Shown: one piece after another, positions 1-2,776 of the stretch
Numbering within the stretch: the first letter of the stretch is position 1
How the letters are laid out: the number at the start of each line of letters is the position of its first letter
Source of the DNA: Bacteroidota bacterium
Lineage (GTDB): Bacteria > Bacteroidota > Bacteroidia > Chitinophagales > Chitinophagaceae
Assembly: GCA_018268055.1 (NCBI GenBank)
Contig: JAFDXF010000080.1
Location: 1 to 64,000, forward strand
DNA length: 64,000 bases
Reading direction: 5' to 3'
Position numbers and translations under genes: made by a program
The notes under the pieces: generated by a model
What the model saw: only the letters and a program-made list of their open reading frames with translations
What the model was told of the DNA's origin: nothing
Database searches by the model: none

Positions 1-259
1 CAACATTTTATCCCACCTCGGGTAGCCTATTTGTTTTACAGTTTGCTCCACAAAATGCTTTTGATTGTTTACTCTTTGTAAATACGAAACTAAAGCCTTT
101 TCGGTTGCATCATTGCTTCGGTGGGAAGTGAAAAATATTTCCTCTACGGAATTATTTGTGTGGGGGGGGGGTAACTACTCTATCAACTTTACGACATGCG
201 GCATAAACAATGCCTGCTGTAATAGCTGTAGCAAGTAGTACTTTAGTATTTACCTTCAT
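1..259 (-). CDS. Lipoprotein gene with switchable poly-C tract, 5' end only (runs off the window)
   Basis: The ATG is at 257-259 and the gene continues beyond base 1. The first 22 codons give a lipoprotein signal ending in a YAAC lipobox, followed by RKVDRVVTPPP. The coding strand then has a run of C (10 G on the plus strand, 162-171). With 10 the frame stops after three more codons (TAA at 152-154). With 9 or 12 it stays open to the window edge and reads as the paralogue of the next lipoprotein gene, sharing LVSYLQRVNKQ-like and GYPRWDK stretches. As sequenced the gene is therefore out of phase. It could be a phase-variable lipoprotein, a decayed paralogue, or a homopolymer sequencing error. 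The function of its missing C-terminal part cannot be told. The 5' part is near-identical to 2519-2835. Confidence 0.55.
162..171. repeat. Poly-G tract (10 G) inside lipoprotein copy 1
   Basis: Ten consecutive G on the plus strand, read as C on the coding strand, directly after the lipoprotein signal. The frame needs 9 or 12. Such long G tracts are exceptional in this AT-rich sequence; the only comparable one is at the matching place in copy 2. Confidence 0.8.
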
Positions 260-449: not shown

Positions 450-920
450 CTAATCTATAAAAGAGTTTAAAACAAGTTCTTTTGTTATATACAAATTGGG
501 AATATAGCATTTTGAAATTTCTTTTAAAAAATTTAAATAGGTTGAAATATTTTTAAGGTTTTCAGCCTTAATATAATCACATGAGCTATAAACGATTGAA
601 ATTGGAATTAATATTACTGAGTTTTTCAAAAATTCAAATTTGAATTTTTCTTTAATTGAATCACTGACACGAAATATTTCTTTTTTGCACTCAGTGCTAT
701 CTAAAATTAAAGAATAGATGCTTTGAATATTGCCTGATGAATCAATAAAAATATTATAAATAAAAAAATCTATCTTACCTTGTTCGTGCCTTATAATCGG
801 GATATTAAAATTTGTTGAAATGTATTTTTGGACAACCAATATATTTGTATCATTTCTATTTTGAGCAGATAGAGAATTAGAATATAGAATAAAACATAAT
901 ATTATATAATACTTTCTCAT
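450..920 (-). CDS. Small secreted protein of unknown function, coupled to the upstream lipoprotein
   Basis: About 156 residues. I place the start at ATG 918-920 because the product then begins MRKYYIILCFILYSNSLSAQ, a good Sec signal peptide ending at SAQ. An in-frame ATG four codons earlier (930-932) lies 3 nt after the TAA of the upstream lipoprotein gene (936-938), so the two are probably translationally coupled. The mature part is rich in Ile, Ser, Lys and Asn, has three Cys and no motif I recognise. Because it directly follows a lipoprotein with a metallopeptidase-like C-terminal region, a partner, inhibitor or immunity role is possible, but this is inference from position only. Confidence 0.6.
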   Translation of the reverse strand: MRKYYIILCFILYSNSLSAQNRNDTNILVVQKYISTNFNIPIIRHEQGKIDFFIYNIFIDSSGNIQSIYSLILDSTECKKEIFRVSDSIKEKFKFEFLKNSVILIPISIVYSSCDYIKAENLKNISTYLNFLKEISKCYIPNLYITKELVLNSFID

Positions 921-935
921 TTGATATGTCATTAT

Positions 936-2776
936 TTAGTAACAGCTTCCTTGGATTGGCTTCCTCCCTTTTGCGCCAATAAGTGAATATCGCTCATTTG
1001 ATAAGACTTGATTATAAATTGTGTCGATACGTTGTAATGTAAGGGCATATTTTAAGCCTCTTGTGCTATCTTCAGATGGGGAAGGGTTTAGCGGAGGCCA
1101 ATTAGGAAAATTTGGCCAATGATACTTCCATGTTTTCACTTGTTTTCTTGTTAATCCAGCCCATGCAAGTTGCCAATAGTAACGGTCAGTTATATTATTA
1201 ATATTTGTAGAGGATTTTACTATATTTCCAATGTATTCTAATAATTTATCAGACATATAATTGTGTTGTAATGACTCGCTTTCATATAATAAAACTTGTG
1301 GATTTAAAGAATCGTACTTTCTTATAGTATCAATATATGAATTGAATATTTGATCATATTGCATTGAAGCTATTTGTTGTTGAGTAGCTCCTGCTGTCAG
1401 TTTCCCCCAAATGTAAGACATGTAAGCATGAATAATTTCATGTACTAATGTATTCATAACAAATAGATCAGTTGCATTATGTGTCATTGATGAATCAAGC
1501 GTAATTGTAGCCTCAAACTCTTTATTAATAGGATCGTAAAAAGTATTTGTAGTTAAAGCGTCATAATTATTAAGTGCTCCTATTTTAAAATGTAAAATAA
1601 ACTTATCAAGTGTATTTTTTATTCCAAGAGCTTTATCAAGTTTTGCTAAAAAGACACCTAAAGAGTTAGTTCCTATACTATTAATCAAATTACTTAGCAG
1701 CAGTCTTCTACAGCTATCAAGTTCTATTGTATCAATGTTATTGTTTTTCCAAAAATTTATCTTAGCTAAATCAAAAGAAGAAATTTCATTGGTTAAAAAA
1801 ACTGCTAATCCAGCATTTGGATTATATAATCCACCATCATCCTCCGGAATCCATCCCGGCTCACAGGGCGGATGTTGTCCGGGCGTGCAATTAGGTGGAG
1901 TGCCGCCGCCGCTTCCGCCGCCGCTGCCACTTCCACCGTCTCCGCCGCCAACACCACCTGCACCAATACCACCCCCACCTCCACCTGTTCCGTCATCTGC
2001 ATAATCATCCCAGCAGTAGGTATATGGATGCGGGGTAAGGCATAGAATACAGTGATCGCAACCATATTCACATTTAGGGGAATCTTTGTACGGACATTCT
2101 TCAAACCAGTATATAGTTCCTTCCTGACAAACTTCAATTTCAATAAGAACACTGTTTCGCCCGTTTAGTTTTACTGCCTCTGATAATGTAACATAGTAGC
2201 TTCTATGACTCCCGTTTCTGAACAAATTACTATCAACGATTTTAAATTTTGTGTGTCCAAATACAGACTTGTCCAAGGTCATTAAGAATACTGCAAAGTT
2301 TTCTGCGCTATCCATAACAGAATTAGGAGTATTTTGAAATTGCCGGTACTGCCAATCGCAGCTATATCCAAAAGTTGTATCAGCACCGGTGATTTTCAAA
2401 TTCAATGAAGCATTTACATAGTTTTCATTTTCTCTTACAAAAGGAATATTATAAATGTAGGTAGAATCAGCAGAGCTACGTCGCCCTGCTTTTGTTTTGT
2501 CCTTCTTTTTTGAAGCCATCATTTTATCCCACCTCGGGTAGCCTATTTGTTTTACGGTTTGCTCCACAAAATGCTTTTGATTGTTTACTCTTTGTAAATA
2601 CGAAACTAAAACCTTTTCGGTTGCATCATTGCTTCGGTGGGCATTGAAAAATTTTTCTTCAACTACTGAATTGTTCCGGGGGGGGGGGTAACTACTCTAT
2701 CAACTTTGCGGCAAGCGGCATAAACAATGCCCGCAGCAATAGTTACAGTAAGTAGTATTTTAGTATTTACCTTCAT
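936..2776 (-). CDS. Lipoprotein with HEIIH metallopeptidase-like domain, frame broken at a poly-C tract
   Basis: The ATG at 2774-2776 opens a 22-residue lipoprotein signal (GIVYAAC), then VVTPPP encoded by a C run (11 G on the plus strand, 2678-2688). With 11 the frame ends at a TAG a few codons on. With 12 (or 9) it continues through GYPRWDKMM into a frame open to the TAA at 936-938, giving about 613 residues. The downstream frame alone has only a GTG start (2565-2567) with no signal peptide. Reading on: a conserved N-terminal region, a Cys cluster (CEYGCDHCILC), a glycine-rich linker (about 1905-1990), then a C-terminal region with VHEIIHAY (HEIIH at 1428-1442). HExxH is the usual zinc-binding and catalytic motif of zincin metallopeptidases; the third ligand is not obvious. 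It is predicted to be lipid-anchored, perhaps at the surface. The architecture of constant front plus Gly linker plus C-terminal enzyme resembles polymorphic secreted effectors. Confidence 0.65.

Follow-up and report, generated by a model that had tools for sequence, protein, structure and literature searches.

Poly-C tracts just past the lipobox as a candidate phase-variation switch in a toxin-like lipoprotein family of Chitinophagaceae

The window analysed here is the first 64 kb (64,000 nucleotides) of a 109-kb contig, JAFDXF010000080.1 (C78), in the draft genome of a Bacteroidota bacterium of the Chitinophagaceae (assembly GCA_018268055.1; 3.2 Mb in 94 contigs). At its left edge lie two neighbouring lipoprotein paralogues, copy 1 and copy 2, in each of which a run of cytosines just past the lipobox leaves the export leader out of frame with a conserved body. 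As the probable reading of these sequences, we propose slipped-strand phase variation of a family of putative antibacterial lipoprotein toxins that are mostly OFF and are followed by candidate immunity genes with starts of their own.

Poly-C tracts in the copies of one genome

The two copies have the following features around the tract:
162-171, minus strand: C10 tract of copy 1 (G10 on the plus strand), out of frame by +1
152-259, minus strand: lipoprotein leader of copy 1 up to the premature stop after the tract, with signal peptide and lipobox YAAC (RKVDRVVTPPPHK)
1-156, minus strand: start of the conserved N-domain of copy 1 in the shifted frame, ending at the contig edge (base 1)
2678-2688, minus strand: C11 tract of copy 2, out of frame by -1
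2663-2776, minus strand: lipoprotein leader of copy 2 up to the premature stop after the tract
2229-2675, minus strand: conserved N-domain of copy 2, the family marker with the IGYPRWDK motif, open in the shifted frame

The plus strand has exactly 10 G at positions 162-171, hence C10 on the coding strand. Translated from its start at position 259, the copy 1 leader reads MKVNTKVLLATAITAGIVYAACRKVDRVVTPPPHK followed by a stop 2 codons beyond the tract; it runs from MKVNTKVLLATAITAGIVYAACRKVDRVVT through the lipobox YAAC and the tract-encoded prolines to that stop. The conserved body of copy 1 (NNSVEEIFFTSHRSNDATEKALVSYLQ...) sits in the +1 frame relative to the leader, and a tract of 9 or 12 C would put both in one frame. 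The initial annotation had claimed an off-frame run of 10 G with an early stop in copy 1, an open frame needing 9 or 12 G, and a tract of another length, also off, at the same site in the neighbouring paralogue; all of this was borne out, the last by the C11 of copy 2 with its -1 shift. Window base 1 is also contig base 1, the copy 1 body is readable for only about 52 codons, and a DNA search of this genome found no other contig with a leader-region match that could be assigned as its continuation.

Overlapping matches to G/C runs of at least 8 number 7 in the window, whereas shuffling would lead one to expect 0.26; 7 was reached in 0 of 100 shuffles, and all 7 matches fall in the tracts of copy 1 and copy 2. 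When starts were restricted to ATG, GTG or TTG, the post-tract frame of copy 2 opened no earlier than an internal GTG downstream of the lipobox, so that a plain open reading frame call would miss the lipoprotein.

Searching the genome with the leader-region DNA identified 9 places, namely 8 leader copies and a 39-bp scrap (C49:466). A C8-C12 tract is present at the same codon in all 8 leader copies, and its lengths (8, 8, 9, 9, 10, 10, 11 and 12) differ although the flanking DNA is 75-95% identical to copy 2. Seven of the 8 are out of frame, five by +1 and two by -1, and the only in-frame copy (C91) is a remnant cut off about 38 codons past the tract. Four of the 7 non-remnant copies are complete (copy 2, two on C82 and one on C78 near 70.6 kb), while copy 1 and the copies on C14 and C49 run off contig ends. 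Across the genome, C/G runs reach a length of 9 or above at 13 distinct places, 6 of which are the tract site of this family.

Beyond the tract, the bodies have no break in their sequenced part, the four complete ones being open for about 500-580 codons. In the 50 codons after the tract, synonymous divergence (dS) between copies was 0.12-0.77 and nonsynonymous divergence (dN) 0-0.10, giving a dN/dS of about 0-0.18. In the leader, dN was also below dS in most copy pairs, with the purifying signal strongest after the tract. If a redundant family had been killed by tract expansion and were now decaying, remnants such as the truncated C91 copy and the 39-bp scrap would be expected, but open bodies of this length and strong purifying selection just past the tract indicate that these are not dead genes, and decay is hardly credible.

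As in contingency loci, a homopolymer in the coding frame would set the gene ON or OFF, selection acts on both sides of it, and its length differs between otherwise similar paralogues. That the tract is a conserved switch and not a chance error, as initially suggested, is strongly supported by its presence at one codon in every leader copy, by a C12 at the same site in a second species, and by purifying selection on both sides, each in its own frame. With such a homopolymeric switch inside the coding part of a lipoprotein gene, C residues gained or lost during replication would change whether body and export leader share one frame. An in-frame length would yield a full lipid-anchored exported protein; with any other length, only a leader peptide some 35 residues long would be made. 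Every copy carries a tract of its own, with a length of its own, which makes independent switching of the copies plausible. The initial annotation had not recognised a toxin-like lipoprotein family with immunity-like partners, nor that all 7 non-remnant copies are OFF.

Tracts in related species

In 21 related loci of the genus, leader and body are in one frame with no tract at the site. The fusion of leader and body is therefore the normal gene and the ancestral gene a plain lipoprotein; the tract probably grew where prolines come after the lipobox. Family members with tracts were present in four separate assemblies. In species G002 (UR.bin153), a C12 occupies the post-lipobox position and breaks the frame. 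The frame is also broken in two further metagenome-assembled genomes, in UBA4412 by a C12 a few codons past the ATG, where the signal peptide begins, and in PH2015_01D by a C10 lying between the leader and an ATG. In the named-relative loci (154 kb), 4 of the 5 C/G runs of at least 8 fall in the 250 bases that precede the N-domain, a total of 6.75 kb (P about 2e-5), and this clustering suggests that switching arose repeatedly in one family. A strict tract pattern matched only this genome among 394 genomes of the family, a result that is not evidence of absence, as the motif was fixed, only 8 genus members were included, and G002 was missed. No family relative was found in the viral contigs searched.

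Two further tracts were noted in these species. A family member in G033 (C105; L059/L104) without a post-lipobox tract has a G11 about 60 bases upstream of its start codon, a candidate promoter-spacing switch. In G002, a C10 tract lies downstream of a family gene in repetitive, non-coding-looking sequence (L095:5793-5802; G002:C144). Loss of mismatch repair as the cause of tract growth had no support: MutS_V domain proteins are present, with three matches over the cut-off.

Domain architecture and partner genes

On the minus strand, copy 2 (2776-936) is followed by a small partner gene (932-450) and then by copy 1 (259-1, off the contig edge). The remaining features of this region are:
936-2228, minus strand: Gly/Pro-rich linker and C-terminal SprT-like domain of copy 2, with HEIIH (codons at 1428-1442)
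450-932, minus strand: small signal-peptide gene directly after copy 2, an immunity-protein candidate

The bodies of the family share a common plan, in which an N-domain with the IGYPRWDK motif is followed by a Gly/Pro-rich linker and then by differing C-terminal domains. These include a SprT-like type (HEXXH), a JAB-like type (HxH...S..D), a Tae4 amidase and others. The Tae4 amidase domain, from a known antibacterial toxin family, is present in one relative, L113, where it matched above the Pfam cut-off (E 7e-17); the C-terminus of copy 1 is outside the assembly. For the N-domain, no Pfam or NCBIfam model scored above cut-off, and a sequence search against solved structures found no relative and one chance-level match.

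Directly after most family bodies there is a small open reading frame, starting -38 to +57 bases from the stop and mostly bearing a signal peptide. The partner of copy 2 has homologues (E 5e-14 and 1e-5) directly behind the two closest relatives of the copy 2 C-terminal domain, which belong to two other species. Partner proteins are alike only where the C-terminal domains are alike (20 pairs versus 0), a comparison whose P-value overstates independence because it includes pairs from a single genome and pairs in which one gene is represented twice. Partner genes also occur in tandem. A shared N-region with exchangeable toxin-like C-termini, an adjacent small downstream gene that co-varies with the C-terminal type, and tandem partners are hallmarks of polymorphic toxin-immunity systems (PMC3482391), and by its sequences the family has this architecture. 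We therefore consider the switched proteins most likely antibacterial effectors on the cell surface; since the candidate immunity gene has its own start, the switch would silence the toxin and spare the antidote. Separately, a second small exported gene lies after a partner gene at L118:646-1038 (G030:C23); by eye it is like the JAB-associated partner type and may be an orphan immunity gene.

The bodies could instead be phase-variable surface antigens or enzymes without a toxin role, serving nutrient capture or escape from grazing or phage. In other systems, most surface proteins subject to phase variation are adhesins, receptors or antigens (PMC5472700, PMC5953494), and the toxin role proposed here is deduced from architecture. 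Such a function would, however, leave the exchangeable hydrolase-like C-termini with a Tae4 domain among them, and the partner genes matched to C-terminal type and sometimes in tandem, without a ready place, and we judge it unlikely.

Frame states, known systems and implications

Several observations weigh against phase variation of a toxin family. None of the 7 copies with a readable body in the assembly is ON (P about 0.06 for random states with one third ON), and with the three relatives the count is 0 of 10 (P about 0.02 on the same assumption). The length variation described here is that among the paralogues of one assembly and in the assemblies of relatives. The SprT-like match of copy 2 is below the Pfam cut-off, and the structure models of the SprT-like and JAB-like domains have low confidence (mean predicted local distance difference test scores of 48 and 50); the JAB-like model gave no useful match in a structure search, and the many zinc peptidases drawn by the SprT-like model (Z 5-7) are suggestive only. 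Toxicity and immunity are deduced solely from the gene architecture, and slippage and delivery to neighbours are likewise inferred.

The absence of ON copies could result from miscalled homopolymers or consensus errors, with the real lengths in frame and the genes constitutively ON. The genome resembles a draft metagenome-assembled genome, long G/C runs are difficult to call, and every copy whose body can be read is out of frame. On the other hand, of 5 intragenic C/G tracts elsewhere in this assembly, 4 keep the reading frame, whereas none of the 7 in the family does (P = 0.010, from small numbers and tested after seeing the data), which indicates that the all-OFF state is not a general assembly bias. 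Tracts also occur in separate assemblies, and even with a wrong count, tracts of 8-12 at one codon in every copy would still call for explanation. We regard miscalling as quite improbable.

Alternatively, the C run might, through ribosomal frameshifting or transcriptional slippage, allow a little fusion protein to be made from a permanently out-of-frame gene. The fact that every readable copy is out of frame, other species included, would fit such constant low-level read-through. The required shifts differ, however (five +1 and two -1), over lengths of 8-12, and no single programmed shift fits them; judged on shift direction and tract length, recoding in place of switching is improbable, although transcriptional slippage could possibly operate alongside phase variation. 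Returning to phase variation as the preferred explanation, we read the all-OFF state as selection for OFF in most cells.

Among known systems, the tract of PilC is located in the signal-peptide region, and NalP is lipid-anchored. PilC, likened to the present family by description and not by sequence, is a pilus protein that is not known to have a lipobox, a polymorphic C-terminal domain or a partner gene. Like this family, PilC of pathogenic Neisseria has a G/C homopolymer in the open frame of an exported protein, with two paralogues that each have their own tract (PMC5953494), and NalP of Neisseria meningitidis is an exported surface protein with a poly-C switch in its coding sequence (PMC5472700), but it is an autotransporter serine protease without a toxin-immunity layout. 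The SitA/SitI systems of myxobacteria pair lipoprotein toxins that vary in their C-terminal domains with a cognate immunity gene located downstream; they belong to another phylum, use TraA-dependent outer membrane exchange to deliver SitA, and are likened by description and not by sequence, and no mention of a tract switch was found in the part of that source consulted (PMC5562445). Polymorphic toxins with lineage-specific N-domains (MafB; APD1/APD2 after a lipobox in Amoebophilus; Tox-JAB-1/Imm65) likewise combine a lipobox or signal, a conserved N-domain and polymorphic C-termini, and the immunity protein of Tox-JAB-1 in Bacteroidetes is exported (PMC3482391). That survey does not contain the term 'phase variation', and the N-domain described here differs in having no model match above cut-off. 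In the open-access literature, to which our search was confined, we found no paper on phase-variable polymorphic toxins of this type and none that combines Chitinophagaceae, homopolymer and phase variation; the kind of switch and the kind of weapon are each known, and their combination was not found described.

Tracts were also noted in genes outside this family. At G000:C24:9390-9404 (L047), a C15 lies out of frame a few codons past the ATG, in the signal peptide of a seemingly SprB-repeat-like protein, likely a second phase-variable surface gene. In-frame tracts are a C10 towards the N-terminus of a further lipoprotein leader (G000:C87:179635-179644, L051; MKFYRNSPPPSTNCKSVKDLIFTFLAFFVILLTSCSKE) and a G9 within a signal peptide (G000:C73:84126-84134, L050). 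A 10-base C/G tract about 36 bases before a lipoprotein ATG (G000:C25:1091-1100, L048) might act as a switch in a promoter or leader.

The best-known cases of homopolymer phase variation concern surface genes in mucosal bacteria. The candidate switch described here belongs to uncultured Bacteroidota and sits on genes that look like interbacterial weapons, with all readable copies OFF. We tentatively propose an arsenal of lipoprotein toxins with independent stochastic frame switches that silence toxin but not immunity, evolved more than once in Chitinophagaceae, in which most cells would be immune non-producers and rare cells would be armed with random subsets. If this is true, it suggests that the cost of toxin carriage is handled by bet-hedging, not by regulation, and metagenomic annotation could miss such tract-switched genes.
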